Positions 7,932 through 44,388 of a stretch of 48,064 nt of DNA are shown here, piece by piece (positions within the stretch are counted from its first letter, which is position 1; every line of letters begins with the position of its first letter). The notes below the pieces were generated by a model that did no database searches, had not been told where the DNA came from, and saw nothing but the letters and a program-made list of their open reading frames with translations. The stretch covers positions 1 to 48,064 of the forward strand of contig NZ_LRRB01000203.1 of NCBI RefSeq assembly GCF_001646865.1. The letters are read 5' to 3'. The stretch comes from Aldersonia kunmingensis. GTDB taxonomy: Bacteria; Actinomycetota; Actinomycetes; Mycobacteriales; Mycobacteriaceae. The position numbers were made by a program, and so were the translations under genes.

Positions 7932-9383
7932 TCAGCGGTTGCTGACTGCCCCCTCCGCTGCCTCGGCCCACTCACGCCACTGCTTGGCCTGCTCACGGGC
8001 CTGTTCGGCGTCCCGGGTCTTGCCTGCGGCCTCGGCCTTCGCGGCCTGTTCCTCGAACGCCGCGACCCGCTCACGGAACTGAGCGGCACGGGCGAGTGCC
8101 TCCGGGTCGCTGCGCCGCCACTGTGAGTCGGCGGCATCGCGCACGCGCTTCTCGATCGCGCGCAGCCGGCCCTCGAGATCGTGCATGCGTTCCCGCGGGA
8201 CCTTGCCGATCTCTTCCCACTTCTCCTGCAGGTCGCGCAGGGCGGCGCGGGCGGCGTCGATGTCCTGCGACGGGTCGATCCGCTCGCCGTTCTCGAGCAG
8301 CTTCTCCTTCGCCTTGGCGTGCTCCTCGAACTCCGCGTCCCGCTCGGACGATGCCGCGTTGCGAGCCGCGAAGAAGACGTCCTGCGCGCCCTTGAACCGG
8401 CGCCACAGTGCGTCGTCGGCCTCGCGAGGCGCGCGTCCGGCGGCCTTCCACTCACCGAGCAAGTCGCGGAAGGTTGCCGCCGTAGCAGCCCATTCGGTGG
8501 AGCTGGACAGCTCCTCGGCGCGGACGCACAGCTCTTCCTTGCGGACCTTCGCGGCGGCGCGCTCGCGGTCGAGTTCGGCGAAATGGGCGCCACGACGCCG
8601 GTTGAAGCCCTCACGTGCCTTCGAGTAGCGCTTCCACAGGGCATCGTCCACCTTGCGGTCGACGCCCTTGATCGTCTTCCACTCGTCGAGGATTTCGCGC
8701 AGCCGATCACCGGCTGCCTTCCACTGCGTGGATTCGGTGGCGATCTGCTCGGCCTCGGCTGCGAGGTGTTCCTTGCGCGCGGTCTGTTCGGTGCGGAACT
8801 TGTCCCGCTCCTCCTTGGCCGCGGCCGCGGCCTCGTCCGAGTGCTCGATGATGGCCTGCAGCCGAACCGCGAGCCCGTCGACGTCCCCGATCACCGCAGC
8901 GGTCGGCAGTGATTCGGCGAGTGCCTGGGCGGCGGCCTTCGTCTTGCGGGCGTCCCCGACGTGAGTCGCGAGCCGGCCCTCGAGCAACGCGACCTCGGTG
9001 GCGAGATCGTCGAAACGGCGTCCGAAGTGCGCCAAACCCTCCGCCGCGTCGCCGGCCTGCCATGACCCGACCTGCCGCTCACCCTCCGCGGTGCGGACCC
9101 ACGCGGTGCCGTCCTCGTCGACCCGGCCGAACTTGCTGGGGTCGCTCGCGACAGGCAGGTGGGCCAGCGTCGGGTCGTGGGCGTGCGCATGCGGGATCGG
9201 ATGCGGCTTGTCCGACTCTTCTTCGCGCACGACCGGCCCGGGAGCGGGGCGCGCGCCGGCACTATTGCCGGGACGAGGGCCATTCGCGCTGGGTACCGGT
9301 CTGGGCGCTCCGGGCTTGGGTGCCGAAGGTTTCGGTGCGTCCGTCTCGGTGGCGGTGGGATCGGTTCCGTTGCTCTCGGTCAT
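7932..9383 (-). CDS. DUF349 domain protein (Rv2731-like)
   Basis: A 483-residue, highly charged, mainly helical cytoplasmic protein. The first ~90 residues are Pro/Ala-rich and probably disordered; a segment with [12 protein letters not shown] follows, and then about 390 residues of Glu/Lys/Arg/Ala-rich coiled-coil helices. Several of these carry the DUF349 signature, in which W-x-x-A/I-G and W-x-R-F/Y recur ([30 protein letters not shown]). Function is not established. The ATG has AGGAG just upstream. It converges on the miaB membrane neighbour with a 43-bp gap and diverges from the LigB-like gene. Confidence 0.8.
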
Positions 9384-38694: not shown

Positions 38695-40521
38695 TTACAC
38701 CGTGTAGCGACGCTCCGATTGCACCGCTTCCTCGGCGAGCCCGGACCAATCGAGCCAGCGTCCGGCGCCGTGGGCCGGTTCGAGATAGCCGTCGCTGGTC
38801 GAGACGATCCGGGCGCCGGGCGCCTCGAGCCAGCGGGCGATGAGCCCGACCTCCTCCGCGGACGCGCCGCGCAGGGGGGCGTCGTCCGGGGTCACCGTCT
38901 CCGCGCAGGCGACCAGCATGTCGACCACCGGCATCGGTGCCACGCCTCGTGCGGCGACTCCCGCGGAGGCGAGCCGGCCGTGGCGCACGACCGCGAGCTC
39001 CCAGCCGCCCTCGAAGGCGGGTCGGGCGGCGACCAGCTCCTGGATTGCGCACAGCGCGGCGAGGCGCTGTACGCGGCGTAGCGCCCGGATCAGCGCGGCG
39101 GCTCGGTCCCGTAGCCGCGCTGCGCTCTCGAACAGTTCGATCTCGGCGAGGTGGTCGATGCGCTGGCTCAGCTCGGTGAGAACGTGATCGGCCTGCCCGG
39201 TGACGAGCGCACGCACCGCCTCGGGCGCCGCGCGGTAGGTGATCTCGTCGATCGGTCCGTCGGGTCGGCTCGCCGGGCACCCGCCGACCGGGACCACTGG
39301 GCAGGTATGCCGTCCGTCGCGTCCGATCCGGCCGGTGCACGTGCGCAGCCCGCAGTACTCGGCGATCGTGTCCGCGACCGCGGCGGCGTCGCCGCGCGCG
39401 CCGAATGGTCCGAGGGCGTCGGGCGCGGCGGTCCTGGTGATCGACAGCCGGGGGAAGGCCTCGTCGGTGAGGTTGACCCACCAGGCTCGTTTCGGGAACT
39501 TCGAGCGGCGGTTGTAGGGCGGCGCGTGCGCGACGAGCAGCCTCAGCTCTCGAACCCCTGCCTCGAGCGAATGGGCGCACTCGACGTGGTCGACCCTGGT
39601 TGCGAGGGCGACCATCTCCTTCATCCGTCCCCGGGTCTCCGAACCGGTGAAGTAGTTGCGCACCCGGCGCTGCAGGTTGACCGCCGTACCGATGTAGAGA
39701 ACCTCGTCGGCGGGACCGCGGAACAGATACACACCGGGAGTCCGGGGAAGGTCGCCGGCGAGGAAGCGCTTCGCACGCTGCCCAGCGGAGACCTGCGGCA
39801 GGTAATCAACCAGTTCGGCGTAGCTGTGGACGCCCTGGTTGCCGACCCGGCCGATCAGCTCGTGCAGTACCTCGACCGTGGCCCGGGCATCGTCGAGTGC
39901 GCGGTGAGTGGGCTGGTTGGAGACCTGGAACAGGTCGGCGAGCGCGGAGAGCCGCACCGAGGGTGCCTCGTCGCGGGTGAGGACGCGGCGGGCGAGTTTG
40001 ACCGTGCACAGCACTTTGAACTTCGGCCATGGCACGCCCATGCGTTCGGCAGCAGCTCGGAGAAAGCTCATGTCGAACCCGGCGTTGTGCGCGACCAGCA
40101 CACAGTCCTTCGCGAACTCGAGGAAGCTCGGCAGGACCTGCTCGATGCGCGGGGCGCCGACCACCATCGCCGTCGTGATCCCGGTCAGTTCCACGACGTA
40201 GGTAGGGATATCGCGGCCGGGGTCCACCAGAGTGCCGAGCTCGCCGATCACTTCGCCGCCGCGCACCTTCACCGCGCCGATCTCGGTAATGGCGTCATCG
40301 CCGGCGCTGCCACCAGTGGTTTCGAGGTCGACGATCACGAACGTCGTGTCGAAGAGCGGGGTATCGAGCTGGTCGAAGGTCAGTTGTCCGGTGGCGATCG
40401 GGCTGGCCGATCGGCTCCGCGGGCGCCGCGTCGTAGGCGCTGAACTGGGACGTTGCCTGGCCGGAAGGGGTGTCGACCGGGTCACCCGTGGATCGAGTGG
40501 CAGCGGCATCGGCAAGGTCAC
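38695..40521 (-). CDS. DnaQ-type exonuclease fused to a UvrC-like GIY-YIG domain (Rv2191-like)
   Basis: A 608-residue fusion. The N-terminal DEDDh 3'-5' exonuclease has Asp65 and Glu67 (VDLETTG), Asp150 (AHNAGFD), His206 and Asp211 (HRALDDA). It is followed by a GIY-YIG nuclease domain (GVYLF about 263, LYIG about 276) and a UvrC-like region with a cysteine-bearing middle ([11 protein letters not shown]) and a UVR-like helix. The UvrC C-terminal RNase H-like and HhH parts are lacking, as in Cho. Its role is not settled; DNA repair is likely. On the minus strand TACGCT lies 6 nt before the GTG at 40521, which decided the start. Confidence 0.85.
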
Positions 40522-40527
40522 GGCGTC

Positions 40528-40533
40528 AGCGTA
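40528..40533 (-). promoter_or_regulatory. -10 box for the exonuclease/GIY-YIG gene, leaderless start
   Basis: On the minus strand TACGCT ends 6 nt before the GTG at 40521. It excludes the longer in-frame start at 40584. Confidence 0.5.
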
Positions 40534-40700
40534 TGAGCGCGCACCGACAGACCCGGGGGTCGACACGCGCCGCCGGATTGCCAAGTGAGCGTCTGGCGCC
40601 TACGCGCGGATTTTTGTCGGGGGTGCGAATTACCGTGCGCCGCGAAGGCCGAAATTTCCGCGTATGGCAGCCATATGCACCGGAAGAGACGGGGATCACA

Positions 40701-40982
40701 ATGATTGTCGATTGCAATGAATGCGCGGTGCGCGGGCCGGCATGCGCGGACTGTGTTGTCACCGTTCTGCTCGGTATGCCGACGGTCTCCGCGGCGCCTA
40801 AATCGGGCGTCCGTGCAACTTCGGTGCCAATCCACTTGGAGCAGGAAGAATGCGCGGCAATCGACGTACTTTCGGCCCAGGGATTAGTCCCGCGATTGCG
40901 TCTTGTCACTTCAAGAATTCCCACGGCAATTTCGAAAGATAACGGCATCGTGACCAAGAGTGATCAGAAGCACATCGTCTGA
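40701..40982 (+). CDS. Small cysteine-rich protein
   Basis: A 93-residue protein with two closely spaced CxxC pairs near its start (MIVDCNECAVRG then CADC at about residues 5-18), which could bind zinc or an iron-sulfur cluster. It continues with a hydrophobic patch (VVTVLLG) and a mixed C-terminal half. Proteins with this N-terminal pattern occur next to NlpC/P60 genes in Mycobacteriales (from memory), but the function is unknown. Base composition is slightly less GC-rich than in neighbours. No clear ribosome-binding site; GGGG lies ~9 nt upstream. The riboswitch and hydrolase genes follow on the same strand. Confidence 0.65.
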   Translation: MIVDCNECAVRGPACADCVVTVLLGMPTVSAAPKSGVRATSVPIHLEQEECAAIDVLSAQGLVPRLRLVTSRIPTAISKDNGIVTKSDQKHIV

Positions 40983-41104
40983 CCTGCGCCAATCGATCAC
41001 GCATAAATTCAGCAGTTTCGATTGGGAGTCTTCGATATCCGTTCGTAATCTCGTTGAGACCTTCGCGGAGGTTGACGCGCCAAACCGGCGCGGCGTCGCG
41101 AAGT

Positions 41105-41243
41105 GACCGCCTAATCGTTTCGGGCGATATTCGCCAAAACGAGCCGGGGACCCAATTTCCCTGGGGTGAATCCCGCCGCTGGAAACGTGGTGGGTAGGGC
41201 CAACTTCCCGGCCCGAACCCGACAGCTAACTCGGTAGGCGGGT
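41105..41243 (+). ncRNA. ydaO/yuaA-type c-di-AMP riboswitch
   Basis: The aptamer shows the conserved blocks of the class in order: CCGGGGACCCA, GGGGTGAATCC, GGTAGGGCC, and CCCGAACCCGACAGCTAAC ending in GTAGGCGG. An outer helix can form between CCGCCT (41107-41112) and AGGCGG (41236-41241), and TCGTTT pairs with AAACGA around an inner hairpin. In actinobacteria such switches control cell-wall hydrolase genes, normally lowering expression when c-di-AMP is bound. It lies 28 nt before the NlpC/P60 start, close to the GGAG ribosome-binding site, so control may be at translation. Confidence 0.9.
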
Positions 41244-41270
41244 GAGCGGAAGAAGTGGAGTACCCCCTTC

Positions 41271-41825
41271 GTGGCTACCCAGCTGTCCAAGCGTTCTATT
41301 TGTCGAGCAGGCGTTGCCAGTGCCGTTGTGCTGGGCGCGATCGTCGTGCCCGCCGCCCCCGCGATGGCCGCCCCCGTGAACATCCCCGGTGTGGGCACCT
41401 TCGACATCCCCGAGATCCCGGCCATCCCCGCGATCCCCGGCATTCCGGCCCCCGCCCCGGCCCCTGCGCCCGCTCCGGTGGAGACCGCCGGTGAGAAGGC
41501 CCTGCACGCTGCCGAGTCCAAGATCGGCTCCCCGTACGTCTACGGCGCTGCGGGCCCGAGCTCGTTCGACTGCTCCGGTCTGGTCCAGTGGGCCTACAAG
41601 CAGGCCGGCCTGAACCTGCCGCGCACCAGCCAGGCGCAGCTCGGCGCCGGCGCTCCGGTCTCGCAGGGCGACCTTCGCCCCGGCGATGTCGTCTCCTTCT
41701 ACGGCGGCGGCCACTCCGGGATCTACGCCGGCAACGGCAACGTCGTGCATGCGTCGACCTCCGGCCAGCCGGTGAAGGTCGCGGCCCTGTCGTCGATGCC
41801 GTTCACAGGCGCTCGCCGCTACTGA
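41271..41825 (+). CDS. Secreted NlpC/P60 peptidoglycan hydrolase, short form
   Basis: A 184-residue exported enzyme likely to cut D-Glu-meso-Dap bonds in peptidoglycan stems. Signal peptide about 1-33 (cleavage after AMAA), a proline-rich linker of repeated IPxIP/APAP units (about 36-70), then the NlpC/P60 domain with catalytic Cys101 (DCSGL), His148 and His160 (VVHAST). GTG start with GGAG 10 nt upstream. The upstream c-di-AMP riboswitch ties expression to cell-wall or osmotic state. The domain closely resembles that of the next gene, so the pair arose by duplication. A strong terminator follows. Confidence 0.9.
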   Translation: MATQLSKRSICRAGVASAVVLGAIVVPAAPAMAAPVNIPGVGTFDIPEIPAIPAIPGIPAPAPAPAPAPVETAGEKALHAAESKIGSPYVYGAAGPSSFDCSGLVQWAYKQAGLNLPRTSQAQLGAGAPVSQGDLRPGDVVSFYGGGHSGIYAGNGNVVHASTSGQPVKVAALSSMPFTGARRY

Positions 41826-41837
41826 TAGTCACCGCGT

Positions 41838-41866
41838 AAAGCGCCCGTGAGAGTCACGGGCGCTTT
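41838..41866 (+). terminator. Terminator after the short NlpC/P60 gene
   Basis: A perfect 13-bp stem (41838-41850 with 41854-41866, loop GAG) that begins AAA and ends TTT, 13 bp after the stop. It isolates the riboswitch-controlled gene from the next hydrolase. Confidence 0.9.
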
Positions 41867-41972
41867 CGCTGTCTCGGTGGGACCCCAGGTGGACACCCAT
41901 GGTTGCCATTCCGTAATCTTTCCGAGACCAATCAGAGTCCAAAAACCGACGAGGAAACGGAGTGCGAGTCGC

Positions 41973-43025
41973 GTGGCGCCTCATCGCATCCGCCGACCGG
42001 CGGCGGGAATTTTCGCAGCAGCGCTACTTGGGCTAGGCCTCGCGGCCGGCCCCAGCGCCGCAGGCGCGGACCCGGTGGCGATTGGCAGCCCCAGCGAGGC
42101 CATGACGCGCCTATCCGACCTCGCCCGGCAGTCCGAGCAGACCAATGAGGCCGTGCACGCCGCACAGGCCCAATTCGACGGCAAACTTGCCGAGCAGCGA
42201 TCTGCCGAGGAGCAGCAGGTCCGTGACCGGGCCGCGCTCGAAAGCGCGAAGGCCAGGATCACCGAGCTTCAGCCGATGATCGACCGCGCCGCCGCAGCCA
42301 CCTACCGCGGCGCACGCAGCAACCCGCTGCTGGCGATGGTGATGAGCGATTCGCCGCAGCAGGTGCTCGATCAGATGTCCGCGATCGACGTGATCTCGTC
42401 CGAGACGGGCGCGAAGACCGCAGAATTCAAGCGTGCGATTGCCGATGCCGCCGCAGCCGAAGAGTCCTCACGCCAGTCCGCAGCCGCTGCCGGGGAGGCA
42501 GCCGAGCGGTCGCGCAAGGATCGCGATGACCTCGCCGCCAAGCGTTCGACCCTCGACGTCGAGATCGGCCACGTCACCCAGGCCTGGGCTTCGATGTCGG
42601 GCAACGAGCAGGCCATGTACGCGGCGCAGGGCGTGATGTCCGGGTTCAGCGTGGAGACGCTGCTGCGCGGCCTCGTCCCGGGCAGCACAACCGGTGCGCT
42701 GCAGGCCGCTCTCACCCGTACCGGTGCGCCGTACGTGTGGGGCGCGACGGGGCCATCCGCGTTCGACTGCTCCGGTCTCGTCCAGTGGGCCTATCGCCAG
42801 GTGGGTAAGTCCCTGCCGCGGACGAGTCAGGCGCAGGCCGAGGCGGGCACCCCGGTAAACCGCGAGGATCTGCAGCCAGGCGATGTGGTGACGTTCTATT
42901 CGGACGCATCGCACGTGGGCCTGTATGCCGGAAACGGGTTGGTGCTGCACGCCTCGACCTTCGGTGTGCCCGTCGGCGTCTCGCCGATGTCGCGCATGCC
43001 GTTCCACAATGCCCGCCGGTACTGA
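41973..43025 (+). CDS. Secreted coiled-coil NlpC/P60 hydrolase (Rv2190c/RipA-like)
   Basis: A 350-residue exported hydrolase. Signal peptide about 1-33 (RRPAAGIFAAALLGLG, cleavage near GADP), a long helical coiled-coil region (about 42-215), and a C-terminal NlpC/P60 domain with Cys266 (DCSGL), His314 (SHVGLY) and His326 (LHAST). In RipA-type enzymes the helical part can block the active site until processed. GTG at 41973 was chosen because the signal peptide begins there; GGAG lies 10 nt upstream and the longer frame adds no signal. It overlaps the next gene by 17 bp. It is not downstream of the riboswitch terminator, so it is probably regulated separately. Confidence 0.88.
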   Translation: MAPHRIRRPAAGIFAAALLGLGLAAGPSAAGADPVAIGSPSEAMTRLSDLARQSEQTNEAVHAAQAQFDGKLAEQRSAEEQQVRDRAALESAKARITELQPMIDRAAAATYRGARSNPLLAMVMSDSPQQVLDQMSAIDVISSETGAKTAEFKRAIADAAAAEESSRQSAAAAGEAAERSRKDRDDLAAKRSTLDVEIGHVTQAWASMSGNEQAMYAAQGVMSGFSVETLLRGLVPGSTTGALQAALTRTGAPYVWGATGPSAFDCSGLVQWAYRQVGKSLPRTSQAQAEAGTPVNREDLQPGDVVTFYSDASHVGLYAGNGLVLHASTFGVPVGVSPMSRMPFHNARRY

Positions 43026-44388
43026 GCGAGACCCCGACCAACCAACCAAGCGCCGTGGCCTCGAGGGGCGCGAACGCACAGCGTTGGTCGGTCTGGTTGT
43101 CGCATTTGCCGCTGTCCTGCTCGTTATCGCCCTTGCCGTCCCCGAGTCGGAGAGCGGCGACAGCGGTGCGGCCAACTCGACCGCGCCGGCAGAGCCCTCG
43201 GATCCGTATCAGCAGCAGCGCCGGGCCGCCGTGCAAGACCTGCTCGACCGCTGGGCGACCGCGCTGCGCTCGGGTGATGCCGAGGCGCTGAGCGAACTGT
43301 TGGACCCGAATGCCGACGCCGCATTCCGTACCGCGGAGCTGAACCGCGCGGCGAGCGTCAGCGAGGTCCCACTTTCGGATTGGGGCTTCGAGATCCTCGA
43401 CGAACCAGAGATCCCGGTGCCGCCCGCTGCTTTCGCCGCGCTCGATGCCGCCGACGCGTGGTACGCGCCGGTGATGCTGCGTTACGCGGTTGACGGTCCC
43501 GACGCGCAACCGACGCGAAAACCGGTGGCGCTCACCGTCGCCCGGCACGGCGACGACTGGTACCTGGTGTCGGACGCGCCCGTCGCAGGCCGCACCACCT
43601 GGCGCGGGCCATGGGATTTCGGCCCGGTCATCAGTCGGCGCGTGCCCGGCCCCGACGGGCGGTCGTCCGTGGTCATCGGGCATCCGGAGCAGGCCATCGA
43701 GGTGAATGCCCTGGCCGGCGAGGTTGCCTCCGCAGAGAGTGCCGTGACCGATGTCTGGGGCCCCGCGTGGTCGCGGTCGGTACTCGTCGAAGCGGCCGGG
43801 GACCAGGCGGAATTCGCCGCACTCGCGGGCGACTCGCGCGACTCCGACCAGGTCGCGGCGGTCACCGTCGCGGACGCCGTGGATCTCGAACACGGGACCG
43901 CGACAGGCCAGCGAATCGTCTTCAGCCCCGCGGCGGTCGCCGGATTGACCGATACGACGCGCCGGTCGGTGCTGCGCCACGAACTCACGCACGTCGCCGC
44001 TCGAGCGAGTACCAAGGACGGCTCGCCGATGTGGGTCCTCGAGGGCTTCGCCGACTACGTCGGATACCGCGAAAGTGGCCGGGGTTTTGCCGAGATCGCG
44101 CCCACATTGAGCGGGGAAATCCACGCCGGAACACTGCCGTTGGCCTTACCGCAGGATGCGGACTTCACGGGTGAGCGCGCTGTGCTCGCCTACGAGTGGG
44201 CGTGGTCGATGAACGCGTTCGTCGCCGACCAGTATGGGGAAGCCACGCTCACCGAGTTGTATCGCGAGTTGTCCGGCGGGCCCGCCGGACCACCGGAGAT
44301 CGACGCCGCCCTGCACAACGTGCTCGGTGTCGGCACCGGAGAATTCTTGGACCGCTGGCACGACTGGGTGACCCGACAGGCCCGCTGA
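43009..44388 (+). CDS. Membrane-anchored HExxH peptidase-like protein
   Basis: A 459-residue protein. A short basic N-terminus precedes one membrane helix (about 25-45); the rest lies outside. Residues about 65-190 look like an NTF2-like domain (LLDRWATALRSGDAEALSEL ... HGDDWYLVSDAP). A metallopeptidase-like domain follows, with His324-Glu325-Leu-Thr-His328 and Glu345 in WVLEGFADYVG, fitting a gluzincin HExxH-x16-E zinc site. Substrate is unknown; the setting suggests envelope proteins. ATG at 43009 lies inside the end of the NlpC/P60 gene, so translation is coupled to it. Confidence 0.75.
   Translation: MPAGTERDPDQPTKRRGLEGRERTALVGLVVAFAAVLLVIALAVPESESGDSGAANSTAPAEPSDPYQQQRRAAVQDLLDRWATALRSGDAEALSELLDPNADAAFRTAELNRAASVSEVPLSDWGFEILDEPEIPVPPAAFAALDAADAWYAPVMLRYAVDGPDAQPTRKPVALTVARHGDDWYLVSDAPVAGRTTWRGPWDFGPVISRRVPGPDGRSSVVIGHPEQAIEVNALAGEVASAESAVTDVWGPAWSRSVLVEAAGDQAEFAALAGDSRDSDQVAAVTVADAVDLEHGTATGQRIVFSPAAVAGLTDTTRRSVLRHELTHVAARASTKDGSPMWVLEGFADYVGYRESGRGFAEIAPTLSGEIHAGTLPLALPQDADFTGERAVLAYEWAWSMNAFVADQYGEATLTELYRELSGGPAGPPEIDAALHNVLGVGTGEFLDRWHDWVTRQAR

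Follow-up and report, generated by a model that had tools for sequence, protein, structure and literature searches.

A predicted c-di-AMP riboswitch, most likely acting on translation, precedes the first of two adjacent NlpC/P60 hydrolase genes in Aldersonia kunmingensis

The closest described system is that of Corynebacterium glutamicum, for which Reich et al. (2023; PMC9960051) reported a riboswitch before cg2402/nlpC, crediting its prediction to Nelson et al. 2013. In that study, functional DisA lowers reporter output from this riboswitch in E. coli, a C. glutamicum pdeA mutant shows reduced output although its transcript level is equal, and there is no significant effect on a second reporter carried by that message; the authors' conclusion is an OFF switch, most likely on translation. 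The c-di-AMP aptamer of Streptomyces coelicolor rpfA also lies before an actinobacterial cell-wall hydrolase gene, but the available text on it (PMC10117811) reports premature transcription termination, unlike the translational switch proposed here for nlpC, and Bacillus subtilis ydaO/kimA, as summarized in PMC9960051, uses the same aptamer family to control a potassium importer through a terminator, unlike the locus described here. The crystallised ydaO sequence, in the section of PMC5393176 consulted and read by eye, has the same kind of loop-tail complementarity as the one described below. According to PMC10986025, phage-infected Rhodococcus erythropolis up-regulates a ydaO/yuaA leader, and among the partial records returned by a literature search on Rhodococcus we found no study of this nlpC gene.

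Here, we analysed 48,064 nucleotides of an A. kunmingensis contig (the window), in which nlpC is judged to be the counterpart of cg2402 by gene arrangement rather than by alignment. The C. glutamicum locus described in PMC9960051 likewise has two NlpC genes side by side with an RF00379-type aptamer before the first, lacks a canonical terminator and has a glycosyltransferase gene farther downstream; the overall design is already known in C. glutamicum. Our main reading, to which we give a probability of roughly three in four, is that nlpC is controlled by a c-di-AMP OFF riboswitch acting mainly on translation, and that its neighbour shares an upstream element with it while escaping c-di-AMP. 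The features on which this reading draws are the following.

41022..41051, + strand: putative nlpC promoter, TTGGGA (41022-41027), 18 nt, TAATCT (41046-41051); picked by eye, a weak sigma-70 match missed by the scan
41044..41061, + strand: element copy 1, CGTAATCTCGTTGAGACC, an MtrA-box-like direct repeat with an 11-nt period, before the aptamer
41098..41253, + strand: c-di-AMP riboswitch aptamer (RF00379, 85.6 bits), P1 5' strand 41108-41111 and 3' strand 41237-41240
41204..41208, + strand: predicted pseudoknot loop strand CUUCC, pairing with 41248-41252
41248..41252, + strand: predicted pseudoknot tail strand GGAAG, ending 18 nt 5' of the start codon
41257..41260, + strand: Shine-Dalgarno GGAG of nlpC, 4 nt 3' of the pseudoknot strand and 10 nt 5' of the start
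41271..41825, + strand: nlpC, NlpC/P60 peptidoglycan hydrolase (Pfam PF00877) of 184 aa with a signal-peptide-like N-terminus, GTG start
41838..41866, + strand: hairpin after nlpC, 13 pairs with loop GAG, a possible terminator without a U-tract
41890..41919, + strand: putative paralogue promoter, TGGACA (41890-41895), 18 nt, TAATCT (41914-41919); picked by eye, conserved in Aldersonia sp. NBC_00410
41912..41929, + strand: element copy 2, CGTAATCTTTCCGAGACC, before the paralogue
41973..43025, + strand: RipC-like NlpC/P60 paralogue of 350 aa, GTG start at 41973 picked by eye, no aptamer 5' of it

A covariance-model search of the window matched RF00379 (c-di-AMP, ydaO/yuaA) over the full model (1-134) with an E-value of 1.1e-18 and a score well above the gathering threshold of 38 bits, and this was the sole Rfam match exceeding gathering in the whole window. 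The sequence-only reading that preceded this work had proposed a well-formed ydaO-type aptamer and had named this search as one way to check it, and here it was borne out; its aptamer and gene are real, but its starting position, 41105, falls 7 nt inside the aptamer match. The loop-tail pseudoknot CUUCC/GGAAG, also typical of the family, is present as well. The fold of the whole leader (41098-41300) is not unusually stable (z -1.25; 20 of 200 shuffles matched or exceeded its stability). Judged by its sequence, the nlpC leader is a complete c-di-AMP riboswitch of a known type before a target of a known type.

That target carries an NLPC_P60 domain at residues 86-175 (E 1.6e-22, 79.9 bits against a cut-off of 23), preceded by the signal-peptide-like N-terminus and a proline/alanine-rich linker. 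The closest named relative, among 80 of 221 confirmed relatives, is 73% identical. C101, H148 and H160, which we take to be the catalytic residues, appear in the translation, and the one relative aligned has them too. The paralogue is 65% identical to the nlpC product over 109 aa of the catalytic domain, and its top NCBIfam match is RipC (NF038345), nearly full length; because the score of 320.8 bits lies under the curated cut-off of 425, we call it RipC-like only. The two genes had been described as duplicated enzymes, but they are not equal copies, since the paralogue has a long additional N-terminal part that the nlpC product lacks. The best PDB match of the short NlpC is "NlpC/P60 family protein | Probable endopeptidase MT2245" (8idc and others), and it covers only the C-terminal part of the chain, residues 225-385 of 385. 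These entries appear to be FtsEX-RipC complexes; if so, RipC would be gated at the protein level through the N-terminal part that the short NlpC lacks, and c-di-AMP control of expression would suit the ungated short enzyme. Farther upstream, the neighbour at 38695-40584 (- strand) combines an RNase_T exonuclease domain with a GIY-YIG match slightly under cut-off, and the gene order around it presumably resembles the mycobacterial ripC-pimB region.

Only 17 nt separate the end of the aptamer match from the nlpC GTG, which leaves no room for a terminator before the start, and a scan of 40580-43200 on both strands found no terminator-like site (shuffled sequences gave 1.9 on average). With the terminator absent between aptamer and start, nlpC most likely has an OFF switch acting on translation, the kind of platform that the sequence-only reading had suggested and that the consulted part of PMC9960051 considers most likely for the C. 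glutamicum counterpart. Control of transcription, in which the ligand-bound aptamer would cause premature termination in the leader or early coding region, through Rho or an intrinsic terminator lacking a U-tract, has a precedent in the termination reported for S. coelicolor rpfA (PMC10117811, in part), and the C. glutamicum riboswitch sequence is described as lowering transcript whatever the c-di-AMP. Against it stand the missing terminator-like site, the lack of space 5' of the start codon and, in the same portion of PMC9960051, a C. glutamicum transcript level that c-di-AMP does not change and an unaffected second reporter on that message, and we regard this alternative as clearly improbable.

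In the translational reading, the nlpC message would start shortly 5' of the aptamer, from a promoter bearing the MtrA-box-like element. DisA-made c-di-AMP would then bind the aptamer, P1 would close and CUUCC would pair with GGAAG, so that a rigid pseudoknot would be locked 4 nt 5' of the Shine-Dalgarno and 18 nt 5' of the GTG, where it may hinder the 30S subunit and lower the amount of small hydrolase made. The RipC-like neighbour, with a promoter of its own, the same element and no aptamer, would share the transcriptional input and escape the c-di-AMP input. Of this scheme, the sequence shows the aptamer, the loop-tail covariation, the geometry, the paired elements and the DisA gene. The OFF response at unchanged transcript was shown by others in C. 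glutamicum; that the ligand binds in this strain, that the pseudoknot acts sterically, that the factor is MtrA and that the two genes are transcribed separately are proposals.

The pseudoknot can be followed through at least 151 loci, those fetched among the better-scoring matches listed, with 105 before an NlpC gene and 46 before an rpf gene; related genomes in these counts are not independent. Its pairing is kept over the 151 loci through paired changes of loop and tail, such as UGUUUC/GAAACA, CUUUCUG/CAGGAAG, CACUC/GAGUG and a 9-pair version in one locus (L102). The mean score of the best loop-tail helix was 15.2; shuffled loops, a control used because a best-helix search favours pairing, gave 9.4 (sd of the mean 0.3). 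Exchanging loops between the two classes lowered the values as well, from 15.1 to 10.3 when nlpC tails were given rpf loops and from 15.6 to 13.0 when rpf tails were given nlpC loops.

The two classes of leader differ in geometry. Of the 46 rpf leaders, 42 have a pseudoknot strand that overlaps the Shine-Dalgarno, and the two are separate in 94 of 104 nlpC leaders (one of the 105, L109, was left out). The locus L113, whose loop was misread, is counted as non-overlapping. In these 104 nlpC leaders, the distance from the end of the pseudoknot to the start has a median of 18 nt, with quartiles of 17-19 and a range of 6-23, a tight spacing that fits a positional block of the ribosome. In the part of the c-di-AMP riboswitch literature covered by our search, we found no description of this difference. 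Hiding of the Shine-Dalgarno by plain secondary structure was considered and set aside as a general explanation: its calculated openness was 0.40 with the pseudoknot locked and 0.44 with it free, and the locked state was the more open in 38 of 94 loci, so there is no general switch of this kind. At this nlpC locus the calculated values were 0.25 locked and 0.50 free. In three nlpC leaders of one genus (L046, L048, L063), GGAG is replaced by GAAAGG followed by CCTTTC, and a 6-bp hairpin seen by eye could hide the Shine-Dalgarno there.

Pairing of an aptamer CUCC with the GGAG was proposed as a possibility for C. glutamicum in the available text of PMC9960051, and CTCC does occur somewhere in 35 of 105 nlpC aptamers. 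However, it falls in the pseudoknot-loop region in 0 of 105 and the aptamer of the window, unlike that of cg2402, has none at all, so at this locus CUCC-GGAG sequestration is unsupported and we find it scarcely credible.

An RF00379 match was found in 105 of the 121 genomes of the family sample, and the aptamer core stands before nlpC in 50 of the 80 named relatives (80 of 221 confirmed). The remaining 30 comprise 29 Nocardia loci and one contig whose upstream part is limited to 30 nt; when 7 of these Nocardia nlpC loci were run through cmscan, no c-di-AMP aptamer was found, and the same cmscan gave 74 bits for the Rhodococcus koreensis nlpC locus. Since the aptamer is missing there and a short-motif test places another NlpC gene 3' of the first in 78 of the 80 loci, Nocardia, on this sequence evidence, keeps the nlpC gene pair without the switch. 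The Nocardia nlpC loci (L167, L184, L186 and 26 more) keep the gene and a CGTAAYCT element.

Indirect support for c-di-AMP as the ligand comes from the DisA gene of this genome and from the co-occurrence of aptamer and diadenylate cyclase. In the family sample, 103 genomes have both, 16 neither, 2 the aptamer only and none the cyclase only, and in a genus that we name Corynebacterium by inference the corresponding figures are 36, 63, 22 and 0 of 121 genomes, with the aptamer and cyclase screens assumed from matching identifiers to cover the same 121, although 43 and 65 genomes are absent from the two lists. A strict rule of cyclase if and only if aptamer was rejected; it has only the 2 exceptions in the family sample, but it fails more widely, in the 22 aptamer-only Corynebacterium-type genomes and in 7 Nocardia genomes that have a cyclase but no switch in their nlpC leaders. 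Both groups speak against the mechanism, as 22 of the 58 aptamer-bearing genomes of putative Corynebacterium have no detectable cyclase, and 7 of 21 named Nocardia genomes have a cyclase though 0 of 29 Nocardia nlpC loci have the switch; the cyclase was present in all 8 non-Nocardia genomes of the same test.

The genomes with an aptamer before nlpC and no detectable diadenylate cyclase number 23, namely the 22 of putative Corynebacterium and G033 (loci L241-L261, L078 and L104), and tblastn with the DisA of the window genome found no match in any of the 23, with 4 of 4 positive controls matched. An nlpC gene follows the fetched leader in all 23, and in 13 of 19 cyclase-bearing controls, the other 6 being rpf. 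The median best RF00379 score was 54.0 bits in the 22 cyclase-less genomes and 67.8 in the 36 cyclase-bearing ones, in which the best place may be an rpf leader. A crude motif test found an AAUC-type motif 5' of the core in 6 of 23 orphan leaders and GUGAAU in 10 of them; among the 13 cyclase-bearing nlpC leaders of the genus the counts were 12 and 10, respectively, and in the wider family 82 and 101 of 103. Often the orphan aptamer has its 5' half missing or rebuilt, with a shortened form common to L255-L260; CAGCUAAC is kept in 22 of 23, and all 23 have a GGAG close to the start.

The plain reading of these leaders is decay after loss of the messenger; an altered signal, or a cyclase of unknown kind, is possible. 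We also put forward, as a doubtful proposal, that nlpC leaders form a separate platform class, in which the locked pseudoknot about 18 nt from the start would block the ribosome by its position and leave the Shine-Dalgarno uncovered, and that this platform half may be under selection of its own, possibly for another signal, since it persists before nlpC in genomes lacking a detectable cyclase, in which the aptamer 5' half erodes or is rebuilt.

Whether nlpC is a transcription unit of one gene bears on how far the switch reaches. The sequence-only reading had closed the gene with a strong terminator. The hairpin itself is strong, as the 70 nt containing it have a z of -4.0 with 0 of 200 shuffles as stable, but it is followed by CGCTGTCTCG with no U-run, the terminator scan was negative and the aligned region between the two genes in Aldersonia sp. 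NBC_00410 has no such hairpin. In 43 of 81 sequences, against 12.9 (sd 3.2) in 20 rounds of shuffling, the 80 nt 3' of nlpC include a stem of 8 bp or more, and among the 60 of 81 rows listed the stem sequences vary between lineages.

A more informative feature is the pair of promoter-like elements. The pattern CGTAAYCTNNNNGAGAYC has exactly 2 matches on both strands of the 5.6-Mb assembly, which are the two copies in the window, and its backward control has zero matches in the same assembly. With up to 2 mismatches, the element occurs upstream of nlpC in all 80 loci that could be tested and between the two genes in 72 of 81, both counts including the window; since it was first read from the window, these comparisons test conservation rather than discovery. 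The best match in shuffled 310-nt stretches had 5.7 mismatches on average, and with 2 mismatches allowed at least two matches also arise in 7 of 100 shuffles of the window. The sole hit of the sigma-70 scan, at 41802-41829, lies inside the end of nlpC and was set aside.

The MtrA direct repeat given in PMC6265350, c-G-T/A-n-A-C/T-c with 4-nt spacing, is matched by the letters of both copies, and MtrA binding is a prediction. The sections seen of PMC3353115 give a similar repeat period for MtrA, list nlpC as an MtrA target and describe MtrA repression, which the position of the element over the putative -10 fits; direct repression by MtrA is stated in PMC9599347, as far as its available text goes. 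The same portion of PMC9599347 gives a different, TCG-rich motif for the Dietzia MtrA, which speaks against easy naming of the element as an MtrA site. With two copies in the genome, the element is far more specific than expected of a degenerate MtrA box, and it may be a composite of a -10 region and a regulator site.

With a putative promoter for each gene, nlpC and its paralogue probably share the input of the element from separate promoters, and of the pair only nlpC would receive the c-di-AMP input. The earlier suggestion of a one-gene unit is accordingly plausible on the basis of the paired elements; the hairpin on which it had leaned is a weak basis, and the C. glutamicum pair cg2402-cg2401 lies in one seven-gene operon (PMC9960051, in the part considered), in contrast to the promoter-like element per gene and the hairpin between them in the window. 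That operon, together with a hairpin that has no U-tract and is missing in Aldersonia sp. NBC_00410, would favour a mainly joint message of nlpC and the RipC-like gene, with the hairpin read through and the second gene only partly independent. The second conserved element before the paralogue, seen in 72 of 81 loci and limited to two copies in the genome, argues against it, and we hold such a joint operon to be possible, if somewhat unlikely.

At the scale of the genome, the switch is not confined to one enzyme. It had been proposed that c-di-AMP would control only one of two duplicated enzymes, and within the adjacent pair the aptamer does stand only before the first gene, but the genome has three RF00379 matches: that of nlpC in the window, a second before another NlpC gene and a third before an rpf gene. 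The second aptamer (contig 29, 44802-44952, - strand) precedes a gene for 226 aa (8108-8788, - strand, within L155, which spans contig 29 36000-45872), and the third (contig 117, 7910-8089, - strand; L003/L156) has a pseudoknot strand that overlaps the Shine-Dalgarno, unlike nlpC leaders and like the sampled rpf leaders. After the 226-aa NlpC gene come a short gene, S4-like as judged by eye, and a very long one resembling biotin carboxylase. NlpC/P60 matches number 6 in the genome and diadenylate cyclase domains 1, the latter in a DisA-like gene adjoining a radA-like gene, names that we assign from the translations. Because the genome holds three aptamers and a DisA-like gene, c-di-AMP probably acts on three wall hydrolases rather than on a single one.

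The analysis of this locus extends the control reported for C. glutamicum to the Rhodococcus-Aldersonia group with a clear anatomy, in which adjacent hydrolase genes share a promoter-like element and the aptamer stands only before the gene without the long RipC-type N-terminal part. The cyclase-less lineages offer places to watch a riboswitch decay or change, and the comparison of leaders suggests, as a rule that can be tested, a possible way in which translational c-di-AMP switches operate.
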